From Ferrimonas kyonanensis DSM 18153 (lineage in GTDB: Bacteria; Pseudomonadota; Gammaproteobacteria; Enterobacterales; Shewanellaceae): 64,000 nt of DNA. The notes under the pieces are model-generated. The model ran no database searches, was not told the origin of the DNA, and saw nothing but the letters and a program-made list of their open reading frames with translations. The translations under genes and the position numbers were made by a program. Numbering within the stretch: position 1 is the first letter of the stretch; the number at the start of each line of letters is the position of its first letter. Of this stretch, positions 34,970 to 59,604 are shown piece by piece. The DNA is taken from positions 235,373 to 299,372 of the forward strand of contig NZ_KE384365.1 in assembly GCF_000425405.1 (NCBI RefSeq). The letters run 5' to 3'.

Positions 34970-35046
34970 GGCCCCTTAGCTCAGTTGGTTAGAGCAGGCG
35001 ACTCATAATCGCTTGGTCGTGGGTTCAAGTCCCCCAGGGGCCACCA
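34970..35046 (+). tRNA. tRNA-Ile2 (CAU, lysidine-modified)
   Basis: 77 bases with encoded CCA. The acceptor GGCCCCT pairs with AGGGGCC. The anticodon loop CTCATAA has CAT. The body, GGCCCCTTAGCTCAG and GCAGGCGACTCATAATCGC, matches E. coli ileX/ileY rather than elongator or initiator Met, so it should read AUA after lysidine modification by TilS. It stands at the left edge of the defence island. Confidence 0.93.
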
Positions 35047-35367: not shown

Positions 35368-35399
35368 TATGGTCACGTTTGATTAACGGTGCTTCTAAG

Positions 35400-36509
35400 A
35401 TGACCTCCGCAAAAGACGGCTACTGCTATTCATTCCCTGCTGTTAAAGGCCTTCAAGCAGGAAAGCCCTTCTACATAGCGACTTGCCCACTCAGCACTAT
35501 TCCCAAAATATTCATGTTCAACGAATATGAAGTGCCACCAGAGTTACGTGCACAACGTACGTTAAATAAATCACGAATTCCCGATATGGTACGTTATCTT
35601 GTAGAAAACCCCAAAGATTACGTTTTTTCTGCATTAACCGTATCTGTTGGTACTGGAGTAGACTTCGAGGAAGCATCGCAAGGAGACATGCCAAACCTAG
35701 GTACCTTAAAGGTGCCTATGGATGCGCAGATTCTTATCAATGATGGGCAACATCGTCGGGCAGCGATTGAAGCCGCGCTCAGAGAAAAGCCTGAGCTAGG
35801 GCACGACAACATTCCTGTCCTGTTTTTCGTTGATGAGGGGCTAGAGCGCAGCCAGCAGATGTTTGCGGACCTAAATAAGTACGCAGTCAAGCCAAGTCCA
35901 TCCTTGTCGGCATTGTATGACCACCGAGATGAGAGTGCAGAACTTGCCCGCCACCTTGCAAGTAATGTGATGCCATTTAAGGGTTTCACGGAGATGGAGA
36001 AATCCAGTATTAGCTCGAAAAGCGGTAAGTTGTTCACTTTGAGTAGCTTAAAGCAAGCAAATCGTGCCCTACTCGGTAAAGGTGCCAAAGATGGTTTTAC
36101 TGATGAGGAAAGAGCTCTCGCTGCAGAGTACTGGCAAGCGGTGTTTGATGCGACGCCAGAATGGCAAATGGTCTTGAACAAAGAGCTCTCGCCATATCAA
36201 TTACGGCAAGAATTTATCCATGCACACGGCGTTGGTCTTCACGCCCTTGGCGCCCTCGGGTGTGCCTTGATTACCGCCCAGCCAGACTCGTGGCAAGACA
36301 CTATCAAGCAGCTTCGGAAAGTTGATTGGCGTAAGGCAAACCCTCTATGGGCCAACCGCAGTATGCTTCACGGAAAGCTGAGCAAGGCCTCGACAAACAT
36401 TGCGTTGACTACCAACGCATTAAAACAAATTCTCTCTCTTCCGCTATCGCCAGATGAGCGTGCGTTAGAGCAGCAACACATTCTAAACAGCGAGGCATTC
36501 CATGGCTGA
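35400..36509 (+). CDS. dndB: DNA sulfur modification protein DndB
   Basis: A 369-residue DGQHR-domain protein. It has the DndB opening GYCYSFPAVKGLQAGKPFY, then RAQRTLNKSRIPDMVRYLVEN and the motif DGQHR at 115-119. In other systems DndB binds the dnd promoter and represses the operon, and tunes how many sites are modified. The ATG at 35400 is preferred; a TTG at 35379 would add seven residues, and neither has a strong ribosome site. It overlaps dndC by 8 bp. AT-rich relative to the host flank. Confidence 0.94.
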   Translation: MTSAKDGYCYSFPAVKGLQAGKPFYIATCPLSTIPKIFMFNEYEVPPELRAQRTLNKSRIPDMVRYLVENPKDYVFSALTVSVGTGVDFEEASQGDMPNLGTLKVPMDAQILINDGQHRRAAIEAALREKPELGHDNIPVLFFVDEGLERSQQMFADLNKYAVKPSPSLSALYDHRDESAELARHLASNVMPFKGFTEMEKSSISSKSGKLFTLSSLKQANRALLGKGAKDGFTDEERALAAEYWQAVFDATPEWQMVLNKELSPYQLRQEFIHAHGVGLHALGALGCALITAQPDSWQDTIKQLRKVDWRKANPLWANRSMLHGKLSKASTNIALTTNALKQILSLPLSPDERALEQQHILNSEAFHG

Positions 36510-38430
36510 GTTATTTCAGGCCGAGGCGCTGGACGAAGAACAGTATCAATACATTCAAAATGAGTTCTTTGCTGGTTTTAAACGTTACGGCAACCATCTA
36601 AAGCTTCCTTCTGCTCTTCAAGGGTTCGATAACCTTGGTGAGGATCTGAAGCACCCAAATAGTATCGCCTTGAGTCGTGAACTTGCTCGCGAGAGCGCAG
36701 TAGAAGGTAAACCACTTCGTCATTTTATTGATGATGTTCAAGCTGTGTATAGCGCTGACAATCGCCCTTGGGTGATTGGCTACAGTGGCGGAAAAGACTC
36801 TACTGCGGTGGTGATTCTGGTTTACCTAGCGCTGCAGGCGCTTGATGAAAAAAAACGTACCAAGCCAGTATACGTAGTTGCCTCGGACACACTGGTTGAA
36901 ACTCCATTAGTGGTTGACCATGTAAACCGTTCATTGGATGCAATCGGCACTCAAGCGAAGCGCGATAACTTGCCAATGACGACCCACAAGGTATTACCTA
37001 AACCCAACCAGACATTTTGGTCTTGCTTGTTGGGGAAAGGCTACCCTGCGCCAACCCAAAGCTTTCGTTGGTGTACTGAGCGGATGAAGATCGATCCTGT
37101 AAGTGACTTCATCAAAGACAAGATCTCTCGCCACGATGAGGTGATTGTTGTTCTTGGTTCTCGTAGCCAAGAAAGTGCGTCGCGTGCTCAGGTAATTGCG
37201 AAACACAAGATTGAAAACTCTCGCTTGGCTCGCCATACCACATTGCCAAACGCATTTATCTATACCCCAATTGATACTTGGAGCATGGATGACGTTTGGA
37301 AGGTAATTCGTCAGTGCAGCCTTGACGTGACAATTTCACCAATGGGCATTGGTAAGAAATGGAAAAATGACTACGACCTAGAGTGGGAAAACCCGTGGGG
37401 TTCTAAAAACCTAACCTTATGGAATCTTTATAAAGATTCATCAGATCAAGGCGAGTGCCCACTGGTTATCGATGACAGTACACCTTCCTGTGGTAATTCA
37501 CGTTTCGGCTGTTGGACCTGTACCGTTGTAACCAAGGATCGCGCCATGGAAAGCTTGATCCAAAATGGCGAAGGCTGGATGCAGCCTCTGTTGACGTTCC
37601 GCAATAAACTGGCTGCAACCAACGAAACCAAGAACAAAGATACCTACCGGAACTTTAAGCGCCGCACTGGTAAAGTTCATGAGCAGCGTAAAGCGCTTCC
37701 AAAGGACATTAAATCGTCAGAGCAAGTTGAAGCGCTTCTACGCAAAGCTGGAAATGACTATCTGGAGCTTTTACCAACTCAACAATTTGAGTTAGCTGAA
37801 AATGGTGACATTGCTGAGCTGAAAGATGGCGAAACGACTATTGCGATGGTTCAACGCAATAGCGAGAAAAAGATCTGGGAGTTATTCCGATATATTCCAG
37901 GTCCTTACTGGCTGAAATACCGCAAAGCATGGCTGAAAGAACTATTGGAGAAAGAAAAGGCCTTCAATGAAGATGGCTACCAAGTAGCGCTAATTACAGA
38001 GCCTGAGTTGCATGCCATTCGCCAAGAGTGGTTGAACGACCCAAACGAGCCAGATTGGGCAGATTCGTTACCAAAAATCTACCGAGAGGTGTATGGCAGA
38101 GACTTAGACTGGGTCGTTAACGATAACGCTGCCTTCGGTGAAATCGAGGTTCAGATCCTTGAAGAGCTGGGCGAAAAATACGCTGTGGCACCAGAGATGG
38201 TACAGAAACTGTTGGACTTAGAAGTCTCTATGGAAGGCTTGAGCCGTCGTACCGGTGTCTTTGAGCGAATTGGCACTTTGTTACGGCAAGACTGGGGTTC
38301 GTATGAACAGATCAAAGCGCGAACCAGCCAAGTTCAGGGTAAGTCTGAGTTTGATGCCTTTAAAGGTCAGATTGAAGAATATGAAAACGCCATTGCGGAG
38401 CTAAATAAGCAAGCGACGGTGGAGCTGTAA
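36502..38430 (+). CDS. dndC: DNA phosphorothioation protein DndC
   Basis: A 642-residue PAPS-reductase-like ATP pyrophosphatase that activates the DNA backbone for sulfur insertion. The PP-loop SGGKDS is at 95-100. Four cysteines at 319, 330, 337 and 340 (C-x10-C-x6-C-x2-C, second part CGNSRFGCWTC) fit the 4Fe-4S ligands known for DndC. It starts inside the dndB stop region and ends 1 bp before dndD. No cysteine desulfurase DndA is encoded near; a chromosomal IscS may supply sulfur, as described in other dnd systems lacking dndA. Confidence 0.97.
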   Translation: MAELFQAEALDEEQYQYIQNEFFAGFKRYGNHLKLPSALQGFDNLGEDLKHPNSIALSRELARESAVEGKPLRHFIDDVQAVYSADNRPWVIGYSGGKDSTAVVILVYLALQALDEKKRTKPVYVVASDTLVETPLVVDHVNRSLDAIGTQAKRDNLPMTTHKVLPKPNQTFWSCLLGKGYPAPTQSFRWCTERMKIDPVSDFIKDKISRHDEVIVVLGSRSQESASRAQVIAKHKIENSRLARHTTLPNAFIYTPIDTWSMDDVWKVIRQCSLDVTISPMGIGKKWKNDYDLEWENPWGSKNLTLWNLYKDSSDQGECPLVIDDSTPSCGNSRFGCWTCTVVTKDRAMESLIQNGEGWMQPLLTFRNKLAATNETKNKDTYRNFKRRTGKVHEQRKALPKDIKSSEQVEALLRKAGNDYLELLPTQQFELAENGDIAELKDGETTIAMVQRNSEKKIWELFRYIPGPYWLKYRKAWLKELLEKEKAFNEDGYQVALITEPELHAIRQEWLNDPNEPDWADSLPKIYREVYGRDLDWVVNDNAAFGEIEVQILEELGEKYAVAPEMVQKLLDLEVSMEGLSRRTGVFERIGTLLRQDWGSYEQIKARTSQVQGKSEFDAFKGQIEEYENAIAELNKQATVEL

Positions 38431-38431
38431 T

Positions 38432-40426
38432 ATGATTATCAAAAGCTTAGTGCTAAATAACTTTCGTGTTTTTCGTGGTGTCCATGAGATCGATCTTGAG
38501 CCGAGAAAAGCGAGCGTACGACAGTCTAAAGCTGCACCAATCGTGCTTTTTGGCGGTCTAAATGGTGCAGGTAAAACGTCAATTTTGACAGCCGTACGGG
38601 TTGCCTTATATGGCCGCGCCGCATTCGGTCGAGGCCTGAATAATGCCGATTATCAGGAGCAGCTCAATGCCCTAATCCACAAAGGTGTTGGCATCAGTGA
38701 AGGGAAAACCTCAATTGAGCTATTGTTCACCCACAGCCAAAATGGAGTTGAGAGTGAATATCGTGTTGTACGTGGATGGAAACGCAACCACAAAGATAAG
38801 TTATTGCTTATCCAAGATGGTAACGAGTTATCCAATATGTCACCTGAACAGTGTCAAAGCTTCTTGAATGAATTGGTTCCAACAGGGATCTCTGAATTGT
38901 TCTTCTTTGACGGTGAGAAGATAGCTGAGTTGGCTGAGGATGAGTCAGGGCAGGTCTTGCAAACGGCTGTGCGTCGTTTGTTGGGTATCGACGTCGCAGA
39001 GCGCTTGCGTAATGATTTGGCGCTCTACCTTAAACGCCATGATGCTGCGGCAATGCCCGACAGCATTAAAGCACAGATCGAAAAATTGGAAGTTGAGCAT
39101 CAGGACGCCGCTCAGAAAGCTGAGTCTATGAAAAACGATGTGGCCATGAGTCGAGCTCGTATTGATCTGGTTGCAGCAGAAATTCATAAGGCTGAGCATG
39201 AGCTTTCCGCTCGAGGCGGTGCCTGGGCGCAAAGTCGTGAGCAAGAGCAAAAGCGCCAGCTAGAGCTTGAAGCCGAACGCAAAGAACTGGAGAAAACCCT
39301 CAGAGCTGAAATGGATGGCAGTTTGCCTTTGGCCTTGGCTCCAAAGGCAATGGCAAAACTGTTATCGCAGTTGGAAGCTGAGCAAGCATTGAAGCAAAAG
39401 TTAACGTTTCAAGCGGAATTGGATGGCTTTTTGAGTCAACTGGAAGCAAAAACTGACGATTTGAGTACGCTTAAAGCCGCTCGTTTACTGGCCACTGAGC
39501 AAGCAAAAGGTCTTAGCCGTAATGACATTAAATTGGACTTGTCTGACCGAGAATTTAGCCAGCTAGATGCTCAAATTAACGTTTCGGCGAAAGGCTCTTT
39601 TCAGCGATTTGATGAAGCTCGCAAGCGACTATCCGAAGTGGAAGCACTTATTGCAGAGCTGTCGGTAAACATTGCTCGAGCTCCGGAGCAAGAGCAGATT
39701 CAGGACAAAGTGGACGCTTTGCAAGCGCTTAATGCAAAGCGCGCTGAAATATTGTTGGAGCACCAAGCCAAGACCGAAGAAGCGAAAAAGCAGTATCGTG
39801 TTGCTGTTGAGTTAGCTCGTAAGATTCAGCGACTACATGATAAGCATAAGGTTGCGGCCAATGCCGAATCATCACTAGTTAATGCACAGAATACTCATGC
39901 GATGCTGGCGGAGTTCAGCGACAGCCTAACTCAGGTTCGAGTAAAGCAGCTGGAATCAGAGTTCATTAAGAGCTACCAGAAGCTTGCACGCAAAGAAGAT
40001 CTACAGCTCTCTGCCCGTATTAATACCACCACCTTTGATGTGGAGTTAATCGATGAACATGAGCGCGTCATTAACCGTAAGGCCCTATCAGCAGGCGAAA
40101 AGCAGATTTATGCTATCTCCATTCTTGAGGCACTAGCTAAGACGTCCGGTAAAAAACTGCCGATTATTATCGATACCCCATTGGGTCGACTGGATTCGAA
40201 GCACCGTGACAAGTTGATTGAACATTACTTCCCAGAAGCCAGTCATCAGGTCATTATCTTGTCTACAGATACTGAGATCGATGAAACCTACTTTGGTGAT
40301 AGTTACTTGAAAGACGATATCTCACATGCATTTGAGATCGTCTTTGATGCCAAGACTAAGTCCTCTAGCCTTCGTGAAGGCTACTTTTGGGAGCGTGATA
40401 ACGCTCAAGCTGTAGGAGCCAACTAA
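38432..40426 (+). CDS. dndD: DNA sulfur modification ATPase DndD
   Basis: A 664-residue SMC/Rad50-like ATPase. Walker A GGLNGAGKTS is at 41-50, a long coiled coil (about 190-290 and 390-490) follows, then the ABC signature LSAGEKQIYAISILEAL and Walker B LPIIIDTPLGRLDS with the D-loop. DndD is thought to nick or open DNA and provide energy for phosphorothioation. There is no zinc-hook CxxC in the coil. Third gene of the operon, 1 bp from dndC and dndE. Confidence 0.96.
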   Translation: MIIKSLVLNNFRVFRGVHEIDLEPRKASVRQSKAAPIVLFGGLNGAGKTSILTAVRVALYGRAAFGRGLNNADYQEQLNALIHKGVGISEGKTSIELLFTHSQNGVESEYRVVRGWKRNHKDKLLLIQDGNELSNMSPEQCQSFLNELVPTGISELFFFDGEKIAELAEDESGQVLQTAVRRLLGIDVAERLRNDLALYLKRHDAAAMPDSIKAQIEKLEVEHQDAAQKAESMKNDVAMSRARIDLVAAEIHKAEHELSARGGAWAQSREQEQKRQLELEAERKELEKTLRAEMDGSLPLALAPKAMAKLLSQLEAEQALKQKLTFQAELDGFLSQLEAKTDDLSTLKAARLLATEQAKGLSRNDIKLDLSDREFSQLDAQINVSAKGSFQRFDEARKRLSEVEALIAELSVNIARAPEQEQIQDKVDALQALNAKRAEILLEHQAKTEEAKKQYRVAVELARKIQRLHDKHKVAANAESSLVNAQNTHAMLAEFSDSLTQVRVKQLESEFIKSYQKLARKEDLQLSARINTTTFDVELIDEHERVINRKALSAGEKQIYAISILEALAKTSGKKLPIIIDTPLGRLDSKHRDKLIEHYFPEASHQVIILSTDTEIDETYFGDSYLKDDISHAFEIVFDAKTKSSSLREGYFWERDNAQAVGAN

Positions 40427-40427
40427 G

Positions 40428-40778
40428 ATGCTACCCAATCGCATGAACCTTCCCAAGCAAGTGGAAGAGCAGTTGAAAAGGCTAAAACAATATACAGGCG
40501 TGACCCCCAACGTAGCCGCCCGTATTGCTTTTTTCCGCTCAATTGAGTCCGGCTTCCGTTATCATGATGATGGCCGAAAGCTAGACGGAGCTTTAGTTCT
40601 CGATAAAGTGACTTGGCTGGGGGAAACCAGTCAAGTCACCGAGCTGATGCTTCAGTTAGAGTATCCTGAGCTGGATGACAAAGAGAGTATGAAAGCTTGG
40701 TCAGCACATGTTGAAGATGGAATATCTTCGATCAGGAGCAGCAAATCAATAGTAGAACTTTCGGTGAGGCTGGTATGA
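40428..40778 (+). CDS. dndE: DNA sulfur modification protein DndE
   Basis: A 116-residue basic helical protein; DndE binds nicked DNA and completes the modification complex. Family landmarks are the basic N-terminus RMNLPKQVEEQLKRLKQYTG, PNVAARIAFFRSIESGFRY and LDKVTWLGE. Its stop codon overlaps by 4 bp (ATGA) the start of the methyltransferase gene, so that gene is transcribed and translated with the dnd operon. Confidence 0.94.
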   Translation: MLPNRMNLPKQVEEQLKRLKQYTGVTPNVAARIAFFRSIESGFRYHDDGRKLDGALVLDKVTWLGETSQVTELMLQLEYPELDDKESMKAWSAHVEDGISSIRSSKSIVELSVRLV

Positions 40779-42172
40779 GCCAAATTGATAAGGGTTCTTG
40801 TTTCTCGCCTTTATTATGTGAGCACGTTGAAATTTTTGAATCAACTTCTAAGGATAAAGTTAAATTTATTGATATGCAGAGTAGTAATTCTGAGATTCGT
40901 TCAGATAAATGCTATATCGAAATAAATTCCAATACTTCAAAGCCTGATGTTCCGAAGTCCTTTGGAGGGCTGCATGCTTCAGAGATCACAGCGATAGGAT
41001 CTATATTAGCAGTTTTAGGATCTATTATTCTAACTGCCCACACAATTAGAAAATATTCGCGGGATTACAAAATGCAGCAGAAATCACATGAGAAGGAATT
41101 AGCAGACTCAAGGATTCGTTTTGCGAAAGAGAAGATTGAAAATTTCTTTGGTCCTTGCAAGGCTTTATTAGAAGAATCGGCTACGATATATGAGTTTTTT
41201 GCTTTAAAAGAAAAAAAAGAACAACGTAAAAATGGTGGTTACTTTAGAACCTTACGTTTTCTAACCGAAAATACTCATGACGGACTTAAGGGGTCAAGCA
41301 AGCTAAGTGAATACGATCAAAAGTTGCTGGGACAAATAGTTGAAATATCAGAAAAAGTTAGAGTGCTTATTGAAGAAAAAAGTGGTTATGTCGACAACCC
41401 ATCTCTACATAGCTTATTAGGAAAGCTGTCGGCTCATTATCGAACACTAGCGTTAGCGCATCAGGGTGGACTTGATGGACTAGGTAAAGAGCTTGAGGAT
41501 ATTGTTTTCCCATTAGAGATTAATGGTGCAATCGAAAGTGAGATAAACCGGTTGTTGGATATCATTTCGGGCGCCAAACAAAGTGAGTTCTCTCTTAATA
41601 ATACAGTCAGTTTTTACGATAGAAATCATCTAGATTACTACTACAAAACTCATGAACTAGATATGAAAGAAGTTTATGATAAAGTTAGGAAGTATGTGAA
41701 AAATGGTTCGCATATTTTGGACGCTGGTTGTGGTACAGGAAGAGATACGCGTTATTTTATCCAACACGGATTCAAGGTTGTTTCTTTTGATGCCTCAAAA
41801 AGAATGGTTGAACTATGTAATGAATATCCTTTTTCATATTGCATAAATGAAACATTCGGAAGTATAAAGTTTCCTCCGAAGTTTGATTTAGTTTGGGCAT
41901 GTGCATCTTTGCTCCATCTAAGTAAAGAGCAGATGATCAGTGCAGGCCATAAGTTACATAGGTCATTGAAGCCTAGAGGTTACCTTTATTTCTCATTGAA
42001 AAAACAGGAGCCTTCAAACTTTGATGGTAGAACGTTTTATACTTACTCGAGAAGTGAGATTTCAGAAATATTTGAAAACAAATTAAGTTTAAAGCATGTG
42101 GAGTCTTGGGAAACTAACAGTCAAAAGGGTAACTCAGAGATATTTGTTAATTACATTTTCCAAAAGCTGTAA
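40775..42172 (+). CDS. membrane-anchored class I SAM methyltransferase, fifth gene of the dnd operon
   Basis: A 465-residue protein of unusual design. Residues 1-65 are polar; one membrane helix lies at about 68-90 (EITAIGSILAVLGSIILTAH); a charged helical region follows (95-275); the C-terminal 185 residues form a class I methyltransferase with motif I LDAGCGTGRDTRYF (315-328), acidic FDAS after strand 2 (338-341) and LVWACASLLHL as motif IV. The GRDT form resembles small-molecule or TehB-like enzymes rather than base-modifying DNA methylases (no NPPY or PC motif). It is much more AT-rich than dndC-E. Its substrate is unknown. The ATGA overlap with dndE argues that it works with the Dnd system or is cargo expressed by it. 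Confidence 0.82.
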   Translation: MSQIDKGSCFSPLLCEHVEIFESTSKDKVKFIDMQSSNSEIRSDKCYIEINSNTSKPDVPKSFGGLHASEITAIGSILAVLGSIILTAHTIRKYSRDYKMQQKSHEKELADSRIRFAKEKIENFFGPCKALLEESATIYEFFALKEKKEQRKNGGYFRTLRFLTENTHDGLKGSSKLSEYDQKLLGQIVEISEKVRVLIEEKSGYVDNPSLHSLLGKLSAHYRTLALAHQGGLDGLGKELEDIVFPLEINGAIESEINRLLDIISGAKQSEFSLNNTVSFYDRNHLDYYYKTHELDMKEVYDKVRKYVKNGSHILDAGCGTGRDTRYFIQHGFKVVSFDASKRMVELCNEYPFSYCINETFGSIKFPPKFDLVWACASLLHLSKEQMISAGHKLHRSLKPRGYLYFSLKKQEPSNFDGRTFYTYSRSEISEIFENKLSLKHVESWETNSQKGNSEIFVNYIFQKL

Positions 42173-42209
42173 TCGATAGGGGCATTAATTGCCCCTATAA
42201 ATTGAATAA

Positions 42210-43166
42210 TCAAATAATATCCTCTTCTTCTAGAATAGAAAATTCGACAGCTTTCATAAGATTGCTTCCAGAAGCTGTATCGAATATCGCATCAGCATCT
42301 ACTAATTCTAATATTCTTTGTCGGTCAAATATAATATCTGTTGTGATTTTTCCATCTTCAGAAAAATCCCTATCGGAATCCCTTAGGTCATATGAAATAT
42401 AGAGTACATTTTGTACTTTTTTTGGAAGTGTTAAATAGTTATCCATCCTGTCAACACTTCCTTGTTTATTGGACCAATTTTTACCTATAGCACTTTGACC
42501 AAAAAATATCTGTTTCCTGTTCTGGTTCATATCGCCTTTAAATGGTACCCAAGCAACGATATCAACTCCACCATCTCCATTGTCATACTGGATGAATGTT
42601 TTATCTTCACATTTTATCTTGCAATTCAGTTCAATCGATAGTGATGTAACTTTATCTTTTAAGCTACCTATAAATTTTTTGTTTGAAAAACTAGAAGTAC
42701 CAAAAATATGAACCTCAGAGGTTTCTGGCAAATAAGCCTTCATTGCAAAGTAAGACACTAATTCAAAAGAGTCAGTAAAGATATTTCTTCCTTTGGATAT
42801 ATAAGAAAGAGATGAGCACAACAGTAACCCCAAATATAATTTTTGACCAACAGTAAGGTCTGACTTCAACTTTATTCTAGAACTTTCCAAATAAAAAGGG
42901 TAATACTCTAGATAGTTATTTGATCTCACTTCTAACTCAGTGAACCACAGTTGTATCCTGGTACGCCAATCTTCTATTGATGAGGCCCCATCGGCCTCTC
43001 CAATTTGTGTAACTTTTTCGTTCTCATAAAATCGGTCATATACGTCATGTTGAGATGTGCCATCATCACCATCAACAAGTGCTAGTAGCTCAATGTAGTC
43101 ACAATAATAATGTGTATTACAGTAAGGATAGTCTGGCGTATTAGATAATGATTTTAGCTCAATCAT
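42210..43166 (-). CDS. nuclease-like protein of unknown family, coupled to a ParB-like gene
   Basis: A 318-residue soluble protein that I cannot name with confidence. Residues 152-245 have the look of a PD-(D/E)XK-type core: strand EVHIFGTSSF, helix with Glu179, GDGGVDIVAW with Asp202 at its strand, then FFGQSAIGKNW (Gln224, Lys229). The first half is helical and acidic. The start at 43166 overlaps the upstream stop by 8 bp; Met codons at 43178 and a longer one at 43199 are alternatives. It is very AT-rich, like its partner. Function as a restriction nuclease is inference from motif layout and position in a defence island. Confidence 0.6.
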   Translation of the reverse strand: MIELKSLSNTPDYPYCNTHYYCDYIELLALVDGDDGTSQHDVYDRFYENEKVTQIGEADGASSIEDWRTRIQLWFTELEVRSNNYLEYYPFYLESSRIKLKSDLTVGQKLYLGLLLCSSLSYISKGRNIFTDSFELVSYFAMKAYLPETSEVHIFGTSSFSNKKFIGSLKDKVTSLSIELNCKIKCEDKTFIQYDNGDGGVDIVAWVPFKGDMNQNRKQIFFGQSAIGKNWSNKQGSVDRMDNYLTLPKKVQNVLYISYDLRDSDRDFSEDGKITTDIIFDRQRILELVDADAIFDTASGSNLMKAVEFSILEEEDII

Positions 43167-44253
43167 CCCATTCACCATCAGCCATAGATTCAATTGCAAC
43201 CTTCATGTTTTTGGCTAGTCGGAAAATCTCCTTTAATTTTCCATTTACTGATTCGTGGTGCTTATCCACTTTGTGAATAATGTCATTTGCTTGTTTTAGC
43301 GTCGATAAGGCAATATCAATTTTTTGATTAAAAGAATCTGTTGTTACAGAAATTGTATCGTAAGCATCTTGAATACTGCCGCTACCGGTTTTGAAGTATT
43401 CAGTTGCACATTCATCGGATAGTACCTTATCAAGCATTGATAAATGCTTACTATCACCTAGCAATCGAGTTCTTTGATTCTCATTTTTTTCAAAAAACCA
43501 TGTTGTTAGAAGTTTTAGATTTTCAACGTTAACATTGGCAGTTGGGTCTGAAGATGCCATATCAACATTTATAAAATTTCTAATATTGTCTCTGGAGAGT
43601 GAATCAGAGTAATAATTGAAGTAAATTGTTGTTTCATCTAGCCCTCTAATTCTGAAAAATGCTTCATCCTCCACTATTTCATATATAGCATATGCTACTA
43701 ATAGTTTTCTAACATAGTCACTTCGACTCCCTATAGATTTTGCCAGCTCCCTACACTGGTCAATAAAATCTTGAGCATCAAGCTCTGACTTTAGCTGATT
43801 TAGATATCTGGCTTTTGGTAAGATCCCCCAGGACTTTATTCCTGTTACATGTCGATAACCAAGATATTTAGTGATTTCGGCTCGATTTTTGAACACAATG
43901 CAAGGAATTTCTTGTGGTCTATGGGGGGTCTCGCTTAAAACCTTTGAAATCTTCTTCTTGTGTACTTTAGCAATATCTGGATTACTTAACAAAATGGTTG
44001 AAGTTAGTCTTCGGTTTCCTTCAATGACCACATATTTATTTTTTTCTTCTATTACAAGGAGACTCTCGCCAATAAAAAAGCCTTGTTGACCAATAGCAAG
44101 CATCAATTCAATAATAGATGCGTCCTCAAGCATCCAATTAACAATTTTTTCCTGAGTTACTCTTCCTTTCCTAAATTGAGATGGAAGCCTTGGATTATCT
44201 TTGTCTAACTCTAGCTTACTCAAGCTAATGAAATCTATCTTTTGATGGGACAT
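43159..44253 (-). CDS. ParB/Srx-fold N-terminal domain protein
   Basis: A 364-residue protein. Residues 5-105 form a ParB-like domain: FISLSKLELDKDNPRLP, then LLVIEEKNKYVVIEGNRRLTS with the EGNRR motif at 78-82 in place of the GxRR box. The remainder is helical (SIGSRSDYVRKLLVAY resembles the ParB helix-turn-helix) with a coiled-coil tail (about 300-355). ParB-like domains can bind CTP and DNA, and several are ATPase or nuclease switches in defence systems. It lies 69 bp after dptH on the same strand and overlaps the nuclease-like gene, so the two form one unit. Confidence 0.75.
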   Translation of the reverse strand: MSHQKIDFISLSKLELDKDNPRLPSQFRKGRVTQEKIVNWMLEDASIIELMLAIGQQGFFIGESLLVIEEKNKYVVIEGNRRLTSTILLSNPDIAKVHKKKISKVLSETPHRPQEIPCIVFKNRAEITKYLGYRHVTGIKSWGILPKARYLNQLKSELDAQDFIDQCRELAKSIGSRSDYVRKLLVAYAIYEIVEDEAFFRIRGLDETTIYFNYYSDSLSRDNIRNFINVDMASSDPTANVNVENLKLLTTWFFEKNENQRTRLLGDSKHLSMLDKVLSDECATEYFKTGSGSIQDAYDTISVTTDSFNQKIDIALSTLKQANDIIHKVDKHHESVNGKLKEIFRLAKNMKVAIESMADGEWDD

Positions 44254-47300: not shown

Positions 47301-49536
47301 TTTCCTGTTGTGGCATCAGTGCCATCCAGAAGGCGTTGTCCTTTTCTTCTTGGCTAAATGCAAAACCATTGCGTGCATCATAGAGGTAGGGCAATAGGCC
47401 ACGGGCATTCAATCGTTCGACGGTAACCGGTGGTAGCTCCTTAAAACTATCTGCACTATCAGCTTCGATTCGTTGAGCTAATTCAAGCGAATGAGCGAGG
47501 ACTAGCGGGCTAAATGGTGAGATAAACTCTCGCCCTTCCGCGTTGACAAAACCGATCGCGATCAGCTGCTTTTGCTGCTTGGTCAGCAACACATCATTAT
47601 CGATGGTCTCAAGTGCGTCATAGTAGTGTTGGACGACCGCTTTCACTAGCTCACGGAATTCAGGCCCCCATCCAGCCAAGCTAATCAGGGTGCGGTTGTC
47701 CTCGCAGTAATCGAACAGCTCACGGTAGGCCAGATGCAAATAGGGATAACTGGCTTCAAGGTCTAAAACGCTGAGCCGTTCTCTCTCTCGGCTCCCATCG
47801 ACAATCTCACCACTAAGCAAGCGCTGATCAACCAGCTGGGCTTCCCACTGTAATAGAGTTAAGCGGCGGCCCTTCGGGGAGGTCTCTTTGTTATCGAGTA
47901 CAACCTTGGTGTTTGCTCGGAATTGGCCAAAGTAATCATCGTGCTTAAACAGCTTGACGTGTCGGCTTTGATCGAGCATTAAAGGTAGTGTTAGCGAGTC
48001 GGTTGCGATGGCTCCCTCGATATTGAAGGTAAGAGAAGCTTCACCGCTGCTGACAGTGAAATGAAGCTCATCGGATTCGTTCGCGACCTTTTGAAAGTCA
48101 ACGGCTCCAACCTCGGTACGGTCGAAAACCTGCCCAATTGTGTCTAGTACGACTTTTGAGCCTTGTTCTGCAATAACTAAGGAGTGCTCTCCAGTCTGCA
48201 GCACTACCTGAGGTGTTTTCTTTGCTGAAGTTGCTGGCTGAATTAAGAAGTTGGTACGAAACGCATCAACATGGAAATCGCTTGCACGGATAGCTAGAAC
48301 TTTAAATTTAAAACGCTCTGCGGTTTTGTCTCGCTTTAATGACAGGGTAAAGAAAACGGGCTTGCCAGTGTAAGCCCCTTTTAATAGAACCCGACTGCGT
48401 TTACCACCAGCATTGATGATGTCGGTGAATTCAACAGCGTCATCGTAATCATGCTGGATTAAGCATTGTTTCTTCTCCACCCGGCCATTTAAGAAGCTTA
48501 ATTCGAGATTGAAGGTTTGCTGTTCATCTTCCAGTAGCAGGATGAGGTGGCGTTCACGTTGTCCCGCTTTGGTATCCGCTTTGCTCCTTGGGATGAGTTC
48601 ACCCAAGGCAAGACTTTCGGTTTCCAGCTCCAGCACATTCTGTTTGTTTTTTTGTTGCTCTTGAAAGCACTCTCCAAGAGTTAGACTGTCTCTCCAGCTA
48701 GAGGTATCATTGCCACCAAAGTGGTCAGTAATAAACTTGTCGCTAAAGTCGAGTTCAGCGAGTTTATCTTTCAGCTCAGTCGGGTAGTACTGAGTGATGG
48801 CGTCAATCCGGTCGTGTAGCTTTCGGTTTTGTTCTAGCCGCTCTTCGATTTGTTTTGGGTTGTCTTGCCAATCTAATATTTTGGGATCATTCAACAGGTT
48901 CAACTCTCGGAACTGTAGGTCACCATCTTCGATAACTTTATACAGCTCCTCGAAGCCAAACATGGTTGCGCCATCTTCGGTGATCTGTGCGAAGCGCTGC
49001 TCTAGCAAACACTCTGAAACCTTACGAGACTCACAGTCGACATCAATCAGGTCTGACAGTGCTTTTTTGATTCGTTCCGGGCACCAGATTGCTCCGGGCT
49101 GTGCGATGTCTTCGGCTGAGTTGATGAGTGTATCGAGCATACTGTTGTGGATAACCAGCAGAGCACAGCCTCTAAAGATGCCATTTTGACCAGCAATATC
49201 GTCCCGCAGGCGAGAGATGAAGTTCTCTGAAAAGCTGCTCTGTTGATCCAAATTGATTGCAGGCTTTGATTCGACTTCCTCTTTACCTTGCCGTTCGACC
49301 GTTTCATCTCGGTGCAACACTGGCACCAGTTTTACTGCTCCGCAATCTAGCACGGGCAAACGAACGTCAAATGCTTCAATGTTGCTTGTCGATTTTGCTA
49401 ACAATGCTTCGTATAGGTGGGCGCTATTTTCACTATTCGGCGATTGAAACTGATAGCGAAACCCGGCTTTTATGGTCGATTTGCTGTCCGCTAGAAACAG
49501 CTTTGCCAGGAACTCTTCAAACGGTTTTACGGACAT
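44323..49536 (-). CDS. dptH: phosphorothioation-dependent restriction protein DptH/DndH
   Basis: A protein of about 1737 residues, the large subunit of the DptFGH complex that attacks DNA lacking phosphorothioate. The C-terminal third is a HerA/FtsK-like ATPase: Walker A GTMGTGKTQ (about residue 1400) and Walker B MILVDEADNF (about 1620), followed by LSTQDITHF as sensor motif. The long N-terminal part has no recognisable domain by eye; a Ser/Pro/Thr/Glu-rich linker precedes the ATPase (about 1310-1365). The ATG at 49536 has GGAG 9 bp ahead; a GTG at 49551 is also open. It overlaps dptG by 20 bp. Confidence 0.92.
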   Translation of the reverse strand: MSVKPFEEFLAKLFLADSKSTIKAGFRYQFQSPNSENSAHLYEALLAKSTSNIEAFDVRLPVLDCGAVKLVPVLHRDETVERQGKEEVESKPAINLDQQSSFSENFISRLRDDIAGQNGIFRGCALLVIHNSMLDTLINSAEDIAQPGAIWCPERIKKALSDLIDVDCESRKVSECLLEQRFAQITEDGATMFGFEELYKVIEDGDLQFRELNLLNDPKILDWQDNPKQIEERLEQNRKLHDRIDAITQYYPTELKDKLAELDFSDKFITDHFGGNDTSSWRDSLTLGECFQEQQKNKQNVLELETESLALGELIPRSKADTKAGQRERHLILLLEDEQQTFNLELSFLNGRVEKKQCLIQHDYDDAVEFTDIINAGGKRSRVLLKGAYTGKPVFFTLSLKRDKTAERFKFKVLAIRASDFHVDAFRTNFLIQPATSAKKTPQVVLQTGEHSLVIAEQGSKVVLDTIGQVFDRTEVGAVDFQKVANESDELHFTVSSGEASLTFNIEGAIATDSLTLPLMLDQSRHVKLFKHDDYFGQFRANTKVVLDNKETSPKGRRLTLLQWEAQLVDQRLLSGEIVDGSRERERLSVLDLEASYPYLHLAYRELFDYCEDNRTLISLAGWGPEFRELVKAVVQHYYDALETIDNDVLLTKQQKQLIAIGFVNAEGREFISPFSPLVLAHSLELAQRIEADSADSFKELPPVTVERLNARGLLPYLYDARNGFAFSQEEKDNAFWMALMPQQETSYAFVRRLVKDKVTEFKEAFSALFSAGSQSTLIINSVNNHKNRELFLGLVDYVKSQKDKVCQIHVNLYDDKLLYSEFDRFAETGSYDELKALYDLDKGSAKAREQADMVVDLLRSRITYSKFENGKVDGEQAYAHLSFFRNNSKVEARDVNVEKQLSGIVCHGLMAGEASESEEGSYNTAFGLRGVDCANQPHLQIAQKLNSLIKPARRSGEKTSNAKSMSLMVSDDFKTLLDRSYQNSIWTTIIDPKVTLDFFDASKDIVLIHYSDNYTNSTNYDAITVTKQTELYKKVLEQGEGGIIEEFNAFNGEWLLKMVAATGNPTAIANSRKEKRGIIGAYKFVNCLLAQSDITWVPMSVAEMLRVAGNIGLNMSDSDFSRKAQGYKSGAISDDVLFVGFKDQQMYLLPLEVKAGQKQTHSKGVKQALELKRYLSEDILGRDDLAGNLYRGLFVRQVLMQVDKYQLYDLYQDNYFDPFLSQREWWLQGDYDLTDIAEYPKGFLVSMVENDTFICESFEEVDEILKIELPVSDVTKFIVTPLQTLINDIRPEKLCAIPEQYILKGKTSSNSADSKCSSATPDASEAQHEPGSATEVDTIDPALPATTNPTPSVDVQPMIKDGAESLKVLVGHDVRNQEPMLWEPTNTAKFMNTNTGIIGTMGTGKTQCTKSVVTQLHRNQHLNVDGKPIGLLIFDYKSDYVDDKFLNATNGKKFNLYKLPYNPLSLFGDMPMLPVHTARGFAETMTKAFGLGKVQQNKLQRLVGEAYELAGIKKADKSTWSRPAPTIADIWALFEASEPAEDSLYAALMSLQEFEIFEDDITKCTSLYELVEGITVIELAGYPGEIQNLIVALTMDLFYSQMQKMGKPEVRGDFRQMTKMILVDEADNFMSQNFPSLRKVLKEGREYGVGVILSTQDITHFKTSENDYSSYVLTWIVHRVSQIKNQDIKSIFNIDAKAEQDALMKSIGVLEKHHSLYVDGDKRVKKIKDKAFWEIT

Positions 49537-50860
49537 AAACTGCGTCTCCACTGTCGCTCATTCTCTCTACATTCCCAATGCGCTCATAGAACGCGATTAA
49601 TGCGGCATGGCTTTGTTTATCGAAAAACACACCACGAGACTCAAATGCTAAAACCAGCTCGTGGAAACGCACTTTATCTTGGCTGCCGATGGCAAGGTTG
49701 GTTAGCAGCATCAAATAATCTTGATTGATCACTAAAACTTTACCGATACGTCCTCGGGTATAGATAAAGTTTGAACACAGCTCTTTTTGAATCGTTCGGA
49801 CATACTCAATGTTAATTGAGTGTTTGGACATGGTTCGACCAAACTCATCTTTCGATAATTTGAGCAATTGTTGCAAGGCGGCCAAGGGATCTTCCGTTTG
49901 CACTAGTTGCTGGTTGAGGCCTCGGCGTTCGTTGAAAGCTTCTGCGTAATTATTCAATTTTTCGGTAAAACCCGGAAACTCCTGAAGCTGCTGCGCGAGC
50001 CTCCAGATAGGTTGCTTGCGCTCTTTTGGCATCTGCAAACTATCGTTCATCGCCAAGTAGGGGAAGATATTGTGCATTGCACGATTCAACTGGCCAAAGC
50101 CAAAATCCTTCACTTTGATCCGCTCTTCACTGGCTTTTTCACTGTCTAAAATGAAGTAGCAAGGCTTAGGTTTAGGCTCACCGTCTCGCCAGCTGCCTAA
50201 ATTTAATGCCAGTTGAGAGGTATAGAGCGCAGCATACAGGCGCAGAAAATCCGTAAAAGTAGAAAGAAGGTACTTGGGGTGTTCTTCGAGAAAGTGAAGA
50301 TCTTGTTGGAACTGCTTAGTCAAGAAGGGCAGGTACGGGTGCTCATTATTGCCATAAACTTGACCATTTTTCTTGCTTTTTAGAGGCTTATTAAGTTGTT
50401 CTTGCAACACTTCGTAAAGCTGCCGTTCGAGAAAGTTCATCGACACGTTAAGCTTCTCAGTTGGAATAAAGTCCTGCATCAAACTTGAGTACATGTCACC
50501 CAGACGGGAGCTGGCGGTTGCTCCTGACTTCTTATTTGCTTTGAACAACAAAAATTCAGGTGCAATTTTGTAAAATCCTTCACATTCGAAGTACATTTGT
50601 TCGAGAACTTGCCAAAATTCCGCTTCATCGAGCTTGTCGACAAAACGGGCTTCCACTTCGGCTTTAAAGGCCTCAATATCGAGCTCTTGGGGCTTGCGAT
50701 AAGCATTTTTTACTGTGAATCCAAGTACGGCATCCCAATCAAAAATATCTTTGTTTTTCCTGTCACTTGTCCGGATAGGAAAGTAACTGTTTAAGGAGTT
50801 GCTTGGGCTCACGTCTTCACCTGTCTGAGGGAGATCCGCCCTGATTGCTGCAACCGTCAT
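49517..50860 (-). CDS. dptG: phosphorothioation-dependent restriction protein DptG/DndG
   Basis: A 447-residue protein with no catalytic motif visible, placed between dptF and dptH as in all known systems. Typical stretches are LNSYFPIRTSDRKNKDIFDWD near the start and HEYP-like YLPFLTKQFQQDLHFLEEHPKYLL in the middle. DptG is required for restriction but its activity is not defined. Its start overlaps the dptF stop as ATGA and its end overlaps dptH, so the three are tightly coupled. Confidence 0.9.
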   Translation of the reverse strand: MTVAAIRADLPQTGEDVSPSNSLNSYFPIRTSDRKNKDIFDWDAVLGFTVKNAYRKPQELDIEAFKAEVEARFVDKLDEAEFWQVLEQMYFECEGFYKIAPEFLLFKANKKSGATASSRLGDMYSSLMQDFIPTEKLNVSMNFLERQLYEVLQEQLNKPLKSKKNGQVYGNNEHPYLPFLTKQFQQDLHFLEEHPKYLLSTFTDFLRLYAALYTSQLALNLGSWRDGEPKPKPCYFILDSEKASEERIKVKDFGFGQLNRAMHNIFPYLAMNDSLQMPKERKQPIWRLAQQLQEFPGFTEKLNNYAEAFNERRGLNQQLVQTEDPLAALQQLLKLSKDEFGRTMSKHSINIEYVRTIQKELCSNFIYTRGRIGKVLVINQDYLMLLTNLAIGSQDKVRFHELVLAFESRGVFFDKQSHAALIAFYERIGNVERMSDSGDAVYVRKTV

Positions 50861-52500
50861 AGTCCACTTACCTCAAAATCTTCATCTTCGATATTGCTGA
50901 CTTTTACTTTCTTTCCATTAACCAAAACATGGAGAGACTTCGCCTTACTGGCAACCTCAGCGATGTGGTCGGTTACTTCGTCCAACATAACTACAGTTGT
51001 TTTATCGTGTTTGTTGGGCATGTAACCCTGGAGGATGCGCTGCATCAAGCTCAACAGGTTGATGCTTATCGGCATTACAATGGTCGCCTCACCGATCTTG
51101 AAGTACGCATTAAAATGCCCGGTATTGTTTTCGCCATCAGCCTGAATTTTTTCAAATGATGGTTTTATGTCCAATTCAGCGGCTAGCTGAATACCGTTAT
51201 GGCTAGAAACAAAGTATTCACCTTTGCTCAGTTCTGGCGCATTACGGTTGATGTACTTGTGAATGGCTGCGACAGCAGTATCTCGATAGAACTCACGCAG
51301 CATCTTACGCTCAGCTCCCTCATTGCTGTAATTCACATGGGTTTGCCAAAGATTCGAGTACTGCGACAAGAGAGGCTCGTCAAAGTCATTGGAAAACTGA
51401 TGATGATAGTTGTTGCTTAAATGAGCATGGCGCAATAGATAGAACAACCTGACATAGGAACTTGCATTGATATTGCTTTGTGTCCCTAGCTCCACCAGTT
51501 CCGCACGAAAGGCGTCGAATTCTGAGTCTTCCAGTCTTAGGTTGCGGGCCAGGACGAAGGCATCCAGCTCTTTAGAACGAATGTTAGCCGGGTCAAAATC
51601 TGCAATCTTACTGGTAAGTTCGTTTTCTTGGGATGCAAACAGGTTGTCTTGAAGTGGGCCGGGACCGGCCAGTAAGTGGAAGATAAAATCGAGCAAAGAG
51701 CGTGCAGTTAAGAACTGATCTTTCATCAATCTGGCTTTGAACAGCACGTCGATAATGACTGCCTGAACCTCTGCTCGGCTAAGGAGCTGATAATTAGATA
51801 CTAGGCGTCGATTCGGCTTTACTGATTGCAGTTCTTTATCAAAGTACTGGCGAATCAAGTTGTCTTCTGGCGCTGTGATTTTTGCTAGCAAGTCGCTGAC
51901 AAACTGAGAGCAATGTCCTTCGTCTTTGAAGGTAAATCTTGGGTAGTCTTCAAAGTTGAGATAGATGTGGCTATCCGGCGTAGCTTTTCGCTCTAGATAG
52001 TTCTTTATCGAAGTCCGAACTGAAGTTACATCACCTTCTTCTGCATAGTTGCCCATCATCCCAACATTGATACCGACAACCAGCGATTTTTCTTCCTGCT
52101 CAAAATTGGAAAAGAGTTCGTCCAAGGTTTGAATTGCACTGTCTGTTGGTCGGAAGCTGTGTGTCGCATCTAGGTGGAAGTCGGCTCTCTGTGCAAACGT
52201 AAGATTATATTTGGTTAGGATCTCGGATTTGCCGTCACCACTACTGCCACACAGAAAAATGAGCTTTTTTTCGCCTTGAGTCGAGATCCCCTTTAGGATG
52301 CGCTCAAACTCAAGCTCGATCTCGGTTTTGATGTACAAGTACTTTTTGACTTCATCGAGAGCTTGAGAGAGAGCTTCTTTTCGTTCTGTCGAGACTGCAT
52401 ATGGTGATGATTTCGACATCACACTCAATGCTTCAAGGAACGTGTGTCCACGTTCCTTTTGAGGTGTTTCGTTCATAAACTGTCCGGTAGAAATTGTCAT
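50857..52500 (-). CDS. dptF: phosphorothioation-dependent restriction protein DptF/DndF
   Basis: A 547-residue P-loop protein, first gene of the restriction operon. Walker A GSSGDGKSE is at about 85-93 (IFLCGSSGDGKSEILTKY), and SLVVGINVGMMGNY is a likely Walker B region. The start at 52500 has AGGTGG 11 bp ahead; a GTG at 52515 and an ATG at 52476 are alternatives. It is transcribed leftward towards the dnd operon, so the modification and restriction units converge. Upstream it borders a host-like gene, marking the right edge of the island. Confidence 0.92.
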   Translation of the reverse strand: MTISTGQFMNETPQKERGHTFLEALSVMSKSSPYAVSTERKEALSQALDEVKKYLYIKTEIELEFERILKGISTQGEKKLIFLCGSSGDGKSEILTKYNLTFAQRADFHLDATHSFRPTDSAIQTLDELFSNFEQEEKSLVVGINVGMMGNYAEEGDVTSVRTSIKNYLERKATPDSHIYLNFEDYPRFTFKDEGHCSQFVSDLLAKITAPEDNLIRQYFDKELQSVKPNRRLVSNYQLLSRAEVQAVIIDVLFKARLMKDQFLTARSLLDFIFHLLAGPGPLQDNLFASQENELTSKIADFDPANIRSKELDAFVLARNLRLEDSEFDAFRAELVELGTQSNINASSYVRLFYLLRHAHLSNNYHHQFSNDFDEPLLSQYSNLWQTHVNYSNEGAERKMLREFYRDTAVAAIHKYINRNAPELSKGEYFVSSHNGIQLAAELDIKPSFEKIQADGENNTGHFNAYFKIGEATIVMPISINLLSLMQRILQGYMPNKHDKTTVVMLDEVTDHIAEVASKAKSLHVLVNGKKVKVSNIEDEDFEVSGL

Positions 52501-52530
52501 AAGTGTATGTGCCACCTGAATAGTTAGAAT

Positions 52531-53193
52531 TTAACTACTCAATACTTTAGGCGCAATAAAAACGAGGTTATTGCTACCGTCTTTTGGCTTGGTCAGCACC
52601 ACGGTCTGCCACTGCACACCGTCGCGACCCATGGCATCAACCTGAGGGTCTGATCTTAGGCTGACCACTAGGCCATAGCGGCCCGCCAGCTGTTCCAGCT
52701 CCTCGGCCGATACGCCATAAGCCTTACGCACATCATCAAAGGAGCCGTGGCGCAAGGTAATCACCAGATGACCACCGGCTTTTAGCTGATGAGCGAGCTT
52801 ACGAAAAGCGCGTTCCCGTTCACCGGCGGCGATGTGCATCCACACCGCACTGACCAGAATCAGGTCGAAGCGCATCGCCAGTTCGATGGTGGTGCTCAGC
52901 TTTGGCAGTGTATCGTCGAGCCAGTTCACGGCCATGCCTTTGGTGAACGCCTGGCCGACCATCCGCAATCCCGGGCTGGGCTCTACCGCAACCACCTGGG
53001 CACCGCGCCGAGCCAACCAGTGGGCATCGCGACCACTGCCGGCGCCTACGTCCAGTACCGTCAAGTTGTCTGCCGGCTCCTGAGGCCAGAACTTCGCCCA
53101 CGACCGATGCACCTCGGTGAACGGCAAGGCGTTGTAGCTGTCAGCCAGCGACTGAGCATTGTCGCGATAAAACTCGGCAGTCGGGGAATGCAT
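52531..53193 (-). CDS. class I SAM-dependent methyltransferase
   Basis: A 220-residue soluble methyltransferase: SYNALPFTEVHRSWAKFWP, motif I VLDVGAGSGRDAHWLARRG (about 48-66), acidic VEPS after strand 2, and LVSAVWMHIAAGERERAF as motif IV. Likely TehB- or UbiE-like small-molecule enzyme; substrate unknown. GC-rich and host-like, except for its last dozen codons (VFIAPKVLSS), which drift to AT-rich next to the island border. Confidence 0.85.
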   Translation of the reverse strand: MHSPTAEFYRDNAQSLADSYNALPFTEVHRSWAKFWPQEPADNLTVLDVGAGSGRDAHWLARRGAQVVAVEPSPGLRMVGQAFTKGMAVNWLDDTLPKLSTTIELAMRFDLILVSAVWMHIAAGERERAFRKLAHQLKAGGHLVITLRHGSFDDVRKAYGVSAEELEQLAGRYGLVVSLRSDPQVDAMGRDGVQWQTVVLTKPKDGSNNLVFIAPKVLSS

Positions 53194-54237: not shown

Positions 54238-55248
54238 TCACAGGGCACTGCTGGCTTCGGTCGACAACCGCCGTGCATCATCGGGAATCAGCCCCGCCAG
54301 CTCCGGGCGGCTGTGCTTGAGCTGAATGTAGCGGCAAAATGAGTCGCGCAGAAACTCGATCAGCCAGTTGGTCTCCTGAGAGCCGTAGCGTGAGCGGCAC
54401 ACATACAAGCGATAGAAGCCCTGAATGGCGCTGAAGCAGTCCGGCGCCTTCAGCAGGGTGAAGTCGCTCAGGTCCCGGGGCAGGCTGGCCACCGCCGCAT
54501 AGGTAATGGCATTGGAGTAGCGCAGCATCTCGAAGATGCTGTGAACCTCCCCTATCTTCGACACCAGGTTCAGTTTCTGGTCGCGATCGCTCATCACCCG
54601 CTCCATCAGCGAATTGCCGTGGCTGTTCATGCCGCACAGGTCGTGCAGCAGCACCGGGTACATGGCCAGGTCTTCCAGCGCCACTGCGCCTTTTTGCGCC
54701 AGCGGGTGGTATTTTCGAACCACAAACACTCGGTAGCAGGGGTCCATCTCCACTTCGCACACGCCGGCGCCGTCGGCTGGCATCACGTGCACCCCAAAGT
54801 GCACCTCGCCCTTGTCCAGATCCTGGAACGAATTCAGGTGCCAGTTGCGGGCACACAATCGGGCTCGGGGCATCTGCTTCTGAAACTCCAGAAACAGCGG
54901 CGCAAACCAGCCGGTAATGGTACCGTCGGCCACCACCGACAAGTCCCGCCGTACCGCCATCGGCTCGAAGTGGCCGGCGTGCAGCAGGTCTTCCTCAATG
55001 CGCACCACCAGATCGGCGGCAATGAAGCCAATCTGCTGGCAGCGCTCGGTGGGTTTTAGGCCGCTGCCGGTGCGCAGAAACAACTCGTCTTCAAACATCA
55101 CCCGAAGGCGACGCAGCTGATAGCTGACCGACGACTGGCTCATGCCCAGCTGTTCGGCGGCCACGCTGGCGTTGCCGCACTTAAGCAGGCACAGAATTAA
55201 CTGCAGATGAGCCACCGACAAATCTCTAACATTCTGGTTAATATTCAT
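54238..55248 (-). CDS. LysR-family transcriptional regulator
   Basis: A 336-residue regulator with the helix-turn-helix at about 10-65 (LSVAHLQLILCLLKCGNASVAAEQLGMSQSSVSYQLRRL) and a two-lobed effector domain (about 95-300). It is slightly longer than usual through its C-terminus. It lies downstream of the porin and sulfotransferase genes on the same strand, separated by 186 AT-rich bp, so it may regulate them. The ATG at 55248 is chosen over a TTG two codons earlier. Confidence 0.9.
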   Translation of the reverse strand: MNINQNVRDLSVAHLQLILCLLKCGNASVAAEQLGMSQSSVSYQLRRLRVMFEDELFLRTGSGLKPTERCQQIGFIAADLVVRIEEDLLHAGHFEPMAVRRDLSVVADGTITGWFAPLFLEFQKQMPRARLCARNWHLNSFQDLDKGEVHFGVHVMPADGAGVCEVEMDPCYRVFVVRKYHPLAQKGAVALEDLAMYPVLLHDLCGMNSHGNSLMERVMSDRDQKLNLVSKIGEVHSIFEMLRYSNAITYAAVASLPRDLSDFTLLKAPDCFSAIQGFYRLYVCRSRYGSQETNWLIEFLRDSFCRYIQLKHSRPELAGLIPDDARRLSTEASSAL

Positions 55249-55434
55249 AGGCAAACCATTAATACTAATTTGGGTGGCAGGTGAAACTAAATTACGGTTA
55301 ATTTGAGTTCTAATTCAATTCGCTTTTTTAATAAAGAGCGTATTTGGCCCACAGTTGTGATCGAGGCTTATTCGCCCACCGCCATGAACCAAATACGGCG
55401 ACTGATTCCATCTGTTAATATGAGTCAGTAATAA

Positions 55435-56196: not shown

Positions 56197-56219
56197 CGTC
56201 TCTCTCCCTATTTGCGACC

Positions 56220-59596: not shown

Positions 59597-59604
59597 ACCG
59601 CCTC

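Follow-up and report, generated by a model that had tools for sequence, protein, structure and literature searches.

We identified a conserved two-gene pair, which we call PARB and NUC, in a 64,000-nucleotide stretch of the Ferrimonas kyonanensis DSM 18153 genome (contig NZ_KE384365.1, positions 235,373 to 299,372; hereafter the window). The pair lies with a methyltransferase gene (MT) between the convergent operons dndBCDE and dptFGH. Our data suggest, with a probability of roughly 0.67, that PARB-NUC is the restriction half of a restriction-modification (R-M) system whose marking half is here dndBCDE, and that it is sited in a slot where gene cassettes are swapped. Relatives of the pair sit beside a C5 or D12 DNA methyltransferase gene and the window's copy beside the dnd operon, so a DNA modification gene adjoins the pair in both settings. 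Judging from these neighborhoods, the pair is most likely an R-M-like restriction half that changed its modification partner.

A search with NUC returned 69 other proteins at E <= 0.001. In the 42 first-round loci that encode NUC relatives (29 genome contigs, 12 IMG/VR contigs and 1 plasmid), PARB was directly upstream of NUC in every case, with PARB broken in two (L014, L018), and the exact 8-base overlap of the window's two genes recurs in seven other loci. dnd or dpt genes are present in 19 of the 29 genome loci. The other ten have a C5 cytosine methyltransferase gene identified by Pfam (four: L015, L016, L027, L028), a D12 adenine methyltransferase gene beside the pair (two: L029 by Pfam, L030 by profile), a PAPS-reductase-like gene beside the pair (L025 above the Pfam cut-off, L020 below it), or no modification gene recognized beside the pair (L018 and L022, 2 of the 29). 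All Gammaproteobacteria loci with both dptH and dndE (L004, L006-L008, L011, L087 and the window) hold the pair between these two genes, and an HNH_2 gene precedes PARB in L006 and L007. Five Bacteroidota loci (L019, L021, L023, L024, L026) share the order dndC-dndD-HerA-like-PARB-NUC, where the HerA-like gene matches only the C-terminal part of DptH. Among 295 genomes of the window's order, three encode NUC, always in a dnd locus next to dndE. Two Campylobacterota loci carry genes with GmrSD_N and GmrSD_C domains, resembling DndI and SspE, directly upstream of PARB-NUC (L010:7177-8895 and L013:7221-8939).

Phages carry the same pair with a different modification gene. A C5 gene was found on 11 of the 12 first-round phage contigs, and the twelfth contig ends right after NUC. 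A second scan with PARB, taking the best 80 of 113 relatives, added 79 phage-contig loci with new identifiers, 11 of them first-round contigs fetched again. These comprise 75 loci with PARB, NUC and C5, one with PARB, NUC and D12, and three cut by contig ends. In the 75 C5 loci, whose PARB proteins form 49 clusters at 90% identity, the C5 gene is convergent and downstream in 72, downstream on the same strand in two and upstream in one; in L154 and L167 it lies 0.9-1.4 kb from the pair. In phage WPhi (NC_005056), orf98, orf96 and mth match the PARB, NUC and C5 profiles: the PARB homologue is 32% and the NUC homologue 25% identical, the order is the same, and the pair is tail to tail with the modification gene. 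WPhi differs from the window in that this gene encodes a C5 cytosine methyltransferase, and its record names no function for orf98 or orf96. In Pseudomonas phage vB_PaeM-D14A the three genes are annotated as ParB domain-containing protein, phage protein and DNA-cytosine methyltransferase. NUC matches PHROG 3984, whose function is unannotated, and PARB matches PHROG 3694. The available text of PMC3091744 describes other phage R-M genes.

We placed 42 PARB sequences on a quick, unrooted tree without bootstrap, leaving out PARBs shorter than 340 residues, the duplicates L043-L045 and the near-copy L034. Rows linked to phosphorothioate (PT) loci need three changes on this tree (shuffled mean 14.3, with 0 of 500 shuffles as low), and rows linked to 5-methylcytosine (m5C) likewise need three (shuffled mean 12.1, 0 of 500). 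The 21 PT-linked PARBs cluster, and span Gammaproteobacteria, Campylobacterota, Bacteroidota and Planctomycetota. On these change counts, the pair's association with PT is old and its partner changes are few.

PARB has a predicted ParB N-domain fold, a helical region that aligned to the DNA-binding part of ParB and KorB, and long C-terminal helices. Its EGNRR motif (residues 78-82) is invariant in all 96 sequences, and we read it as the Box II or P-motif arginine motif (G-x-R-R) required for nucleoside triphosphate (NTP) binding (PMC12704722). We considered and rejected an assignment to DUF262/GmrSD_N, which scored 20.5 bits in Pfam against a cut-off of 33.2: the top fold-search matches were KorB, ParB and Noc, with KorB best, and the match lists contain no DndI or SspE chain. 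PARB is predicted to be an NTP-dependent DNA clamp of the ParB fold. NUC had no Pfam, NCBIfam or PADLOC match, no match to the PDB by sequence profile, and no significant match by Foldseek alone. We predict that it is a winged-helix PD-(D/E)XK nuclease with candidate catalytic residues D202 and Q224, which are conserved in 100% and 99% of 102 sequences, respectively; K234 is conserved in 96%. The lysine of an (E/Q)xK motif, two residues after the Q, is present in L029 and L182 and not in the window's NUC.

The locus is arranged as follows:

35379..36509, plus strand: dndB (TIGR03233)
36502..38430, plus strand: dndC (TIGR03183)
38432..40426, plus strand: dndD (TIGR03185)
40428..40778, plus strand: dndE (TIGR03184), whose 3' end forms one slot shoulder
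40775..42172, plus strand: MT, class I S-adenosylmethionine-dependent methyltransferase of 465 amino acids, the last gene of the dnd operon
42176..42198, no strand assigned: hairpin between the convergent MT and NUC ends, a possible two-way terminator
42210..43166, minus strand: NUC, 318 amino acids, with a predicted N-terminal winged helix and a predicted C-terminal PD-(D/E)XK-like nuclease
43159..44253, minus strand: PARB, ParB/Noc/KorB-like protein of 364 amino acids
44323..49551, minus strand: dptH (dndH; TIGR03237, 1471 bits), whose 3' end forms the opposite slot shoulder
49517..50860, minus strand: dptG (dndG; TIGR03236, 302 bits)
50857..52515, minus strand: dptF (dndF; TIGR03238, 532 bits)

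All genes of dndBCDE (35379-40778, plus strand) and dptFGH (52515-44323, minus strand) score above their NCBIfam cut-offs. A sequence-only reading of this DNA had described three genes filling the gap between the convergent operons, joined to them or to each other by overlaps of 4 and 8 bases, and had taken them for operon genes instead of debris; positions, strands and overlaps all hold, and debris can be rejected since the reading frames are intact and conserved. MT starts at 40775, overlapping the end of dndE (40778) by 4 bases, and therefore closes the dnd operon. The NUC ATG at 43166 lies inside PARB, which ends at 43159, giving the 8-base overlap; an upstream NUC start would lengthen it. 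With only 69 bases between dptH and PARB, this overlap makes PARB and NUC the end of a dptF-G-H-PARB-NUC operon. The hairpin region (42165-42215) folds with a minimum free energy of -17.3 kcal/mol (shuffle z -3.67), and is not among the entries of our terminator scan, presumably because it has no T run. As the sequence-only reading also proposed, none of the three genes is a known Dnd or Dpt subunit: no Pfam, NCBIfam or PADLOC model names them so.

To ask what occupies this position elsewhere, we read 25 dptH-dndE junctions: 8 from E. coli, 12 from the window's order (window included) and 5 from the NUC search. The junctions were selected, so they give no frequencies. The dnd/dpt region matched 204 of 5426 E. 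coli genomes, and the E. coli junctions were chosen for differing content from 60 listed of 204 records. Seventeen of the 295 genomes of the window's order bear DptH, and 12 of these junctions were readable; L072, L073, L079, L083 and L085 have no recognizable dptH end or dndE. The junction set omits L071, with a truncated dptH, and the duplicates L043, L044 and L052. In a broad sample of the class, DptH was found in 1 of 369 genomes, the window's own, and the survey therefore draws on E. coli, the window's order and loci that bear NUC.

Slot content varies among these 25 junctions: the same three genes are not fixed in all dnd islands, as core Dnd/Dpt subunits would be. Besides PARB-NUC, Pfam and annotation identify Mrr_cat with HARE-HTH, AIPR, PIN_8, HEPN_Swt1 and HNH_2 genes; a small protein with a DGQHR/DndB-like protein; GmrSD_N with an ABC-type ATPase; a GHKL ATPase with Methyltransf_35; an unrelated pair of ParB_N (sub-threshold) and Mrr_cat; and a second DndD-like operon. 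In the L078 slot (L078:11628-13552), an Mrr_cat gene follows a distinct ParB-like gene that shares 21% identity with PARB, and the two are apparently a parallel ParB-plus-nuclease pair. The roughly 7.5 kb slot of genome G219 (L082:1509-9045) encodes a second DndD-like ATPase and four further open reading frames, perhaps of the CxC/Pbe type. The cargo is AT-richer than dptH in 25 of 25 junctions and AT-richer than dndE/D in 24, with L070, which carries IS66, the single exception.

Cargo type does not follow the dptH tree, on which it needs 15 changes against 15.1 when shuffled (126 of 200 shuffles as low); this tree is quick and without bootstrap, and places the long window, L004 and L007 rows uncertainly. 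In 60-base windows, the dptH ends of L068 (AIPR cargo) and L070 (AgrB-like/DGQHR cargo) are 97-100% identical, excluding the first window and the last one or two, and, apart from the final 60 bases of dndE, dndE/dndD of L065 and L068 are 98-100% identical. Past the first two windows, identity between L067 and L069, whose cargo is the same, is 93-100% right up to either end. Based on these comparisons, the slot appears to be a cassette-swap site where AT-rich cassettes replace one another, and homologous recombination within the shoulders would be the simplest explanation of the exchange. No complete E. coli genome matched the window's PARB-NUC stretch, and the L008 stretch matched over no more than 22% of its length, confined to the two ends, so exchange between near-identical flanks is seen for other cargo only. 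The dnd and dpt clusters of E. coli have been described as "often separated by 1 to 3 hypothetical proteins" in islands of mosaic GC (PMC4373003).

In the mechanism that we propose, dndBCDE, which is predicted to place PTs in DNA, would mark the host genome. PARB would act as a nucleotide-gated DNA clamp and sensor that, once loaded on DNA, brings in or licenses NUC, and NUC would cut unmarked phage or plasmid DNA. Host PT marks would release or silence the PARB-NUC complex, as reported for DndI. The logic of DndI would in this way be divided over two proteins, and the pair would provide a second restriction arm beside DptFGH, useful if a phage blocks one arm.

DndI is the closest parallel in logic. 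In Salmonella Cerro 87 (IscS-DndBCDE-DndI) it adjoins dndBCDE and is cotranscribed with dndFGH; its ATPase is stimulated by PT, and it is proposed to leave PT-marked self DNA (PMC11662687). Like PARB-NUC, it joins a PT-linked ParB-superfamily sensor to a nuclease beside dndBCDE (PMC11662687), and PARB-NUC shares its location at the dptH-dndE junction within the dpt operon. The two differ in that DndI is a single protein with a DUF262 sensor and an HNH nuclease (PMC11662687), whereas here two genes encode a ParB/KorB-type protein, with GmrSD_N sub-threshold, and a predicted PD-(D/E)XK-like nuclease, with no HNH. PARB also resembles PD-lambda-5 (PMC9519451; PADLOC PD-Lambda-5_A/B), matching the ParB-like N-terminal part of the A protein, and a D12 methyltransferase gene of the PD-Lambda-5_B type adjoins the pair in L029. 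The likeness to A is partial: PARB residues 6-178 align to positions 4-189 of 466. PADLOC models matched neither NUC nor four NUC relatives, and neither Pfam nor PADLOC found a D12 methyltransferase among the window's slot proteins. In uncultured Bacteroidota (L029:6533-10696 and L030), a second ParB-like gene, a D12 methyltransferase gene of the PD-Lambda-5_B type and PARB-NUC stand in a row. The HARE-HTH restriction endonuclease, HNH, PIN and HEPN types surveyed in Dnd neighborhoods by Rakesh, Aravind and Krishnan (PMC10853773) also occur in the slot, while the portions of that text compared hold no pair of ParB and a restriction endonuclease. Their account of a DndDE core able to pair with cytosine methylases is a conceptual precedent (PMC10853773).

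The pair may also serve as a PT-linked restriction arm where Dpt is absent. The 295-genome draw gave 17 DptH matches, none of them in G221, one of the three NUC genomes of the window's order. DndC is present in 19 of the 29 NUC genomes (17 above the cut-off) and DptH in 7; 13 of the 19 DndC-positive genomes (11 of the 17 above the DndC cut-off) lack a DptH match. Several points qualify this reading: many of these genomes are metagenome-assembled, the Bacteroidota loci possess a HerA-like gene of their own, and L015, one of the 13, has the pair beside a C5 gene.

An unlikely alternative is that PARB-NUC acts in abortive infection, as a suicide device held in check by the modification system: instead of restricting incoming DNA, it would kill the cell once phage action inhibits the PT marks or dilutes them. 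Rakesh et al. have proposed that suicide effectors lie close to Dnd loci (PMC10853773), and AIPR and HEPN genes occur in the same slot; the methyltransferase gene beside nearly every phage copy, however, fits self/non-self restriction at least equally well.

The sequence-only reading also held that base composition points to a later insertion into the defense island. The underlying observation is correct: GC (with third-position GC3 in brackets) is 35.6% (30.5%) for MT, 34.0% (27.0%) for NUC and 35.1% (27.9%) for PARB, compared with 46.6-48.3% (45.3-48.0%) for dndB-E and 44.3-47.7% (48.5-53.5%) for dptF-H, so that the three gap genes span 34.0-35.6% against 44.3-48.3%. Most 1-kb windows farther from the island are at about 55-65% GC. 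The AT-rich step recurs at the other dptH-dndE junctions compared, which rejects chance composition. The reading is also right about the foreign composition and the cargo slot, but the genes are the tails of two operons and not a single insert, and PARB-NUC is an old recurrent companion of PT loci. Counting loci longer than 7 kb and excluding duplicates, 39 of 41 have a PARB-NUC pair that is more AT-rich than the remaining locus, whether or not dnd is present; low GC is therefore no guide here to when an insertion took place. We therefore consider it very improbable that what fills the gap is an ordinary, recent insert of three unrelated AT-rich genes: the large GC and GC3 step and the plainly different E. 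coli slot content between near-identical flanks speak for it, while the PT linkage of PARB-NUC across phyla, its AT-richness in nearly all loci and the occurrence of MT in the corresponding place in a second family of the order speak against it, and late insertion is rejected as the whole story for PARB-NUC. Less probable still is that PARB regulates dnd/dpt expression and NUC repairs or processes DNA as an enzyme of the modification system. Although the ParB-superfamily protein DndB is a reported transcriptional regulator (PMC10853773) and KorB is titled a transcriptional repressor, the same pair stands with cytosine methyltransferase genes on phage contigs, and many of the genes that share its slot are for nucleases or abortive infection.

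MT behaves differently from the pair. It matches Pfam Methyltransf_25 (E 1.5e-13, residues 314-402), a class I domain, and no DNA-methylase Pfam family; against the NCBIfam phosphorothioation-associated methyltransferase it scores 12 bits, with a cut-off of 150. A hydropathy peak at about residues 70-91 predicts a membrane segment. Domain-level matches occur in 175 of the 295 genomes of the order, and near-full-length relatives in two, the window and G278 (L086), each immediately 3' of dndE on the same strand. The G278 relative, from another family of the order, is 50% identical over residues 61-464, and both proteins have a hydrophobic segment toward the N terminus. The remainder of the G278 slot is DGQHR cargo, so MT and PARB-NUC travel separately; MT lies in a pair-bearing dptH-dndE junction, and between dndE and NUC among the three NUC genomes of the order, in the window only. 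At E <= 1e-40, the broad class sample gave 1 match in 369, the window itself. The MT relatives P0104 and P0119 are on contigs of the same lengths as those of the NUC relatives P0058 and P0016, at most a hint of co-location. Based on these distributions MT seems to be a separate, rarer slot passenger, probably a membrane-anchored accessory.

A second small class I methyltransferase (220 amino acids, Methyltransf_25; 52531-53193, minus strand) is encoded just upstream of dptF, where L004 likewise has an MT-like match. A tRNA-Met gene (34970-35046) directly precedes the dnd island, and the last 12 or more bases of this tRNA have no second copy elsewhere in the window. Similar GC-rich hairpin-like stretches at about 35055, just past the tRNA, and about 53320 may mark the island's ends. 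The right flank (54238-60288) encodes a LysR regulator, two Tsx channels and an arylsulfotransferase with DsbB/DsbA-like genes.

Each part of the proposed system belongs to a known kind, and there is already a restriction protein of the ParB superfamily that is linked to PT. We found no description of the PARB-NUC pair in the open-licence literature searched, and as far as that literature goes three things are new: this family of two genes, the fact that it partners three types of modification, and the role of the slot as a site of cassette exchange. A bolder and more tentative extension, which we favor somewhat less than its converse, is that the pair is a portable, mark-agnostic half, in which a ParB-type clamp and a winged-helix nuclease plug into chemically unrelated writers: m5C in P2-like phages, adenine methylation in some Bacteroidota and backbone sulfur in Dnd islands. 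If true, this would be the first clamp-type restriction enzyme, reaching Dnd islands via a dedicated dptH-dndE exchange slot. If our interpretation is right, two or three DNA marks of unrelated chemistry have their protection enforced by one and the same restriction module, and the long-standing question of how a nuclease reads "marked" without reading the chemistry of the mark becomes testable. It would also help explain the frequent extra nucleases at PT loci, would give ParB-fold switches a role in defense, and would make the dptH-dndE junction a predictable spot to mine for new anti-phage genes.

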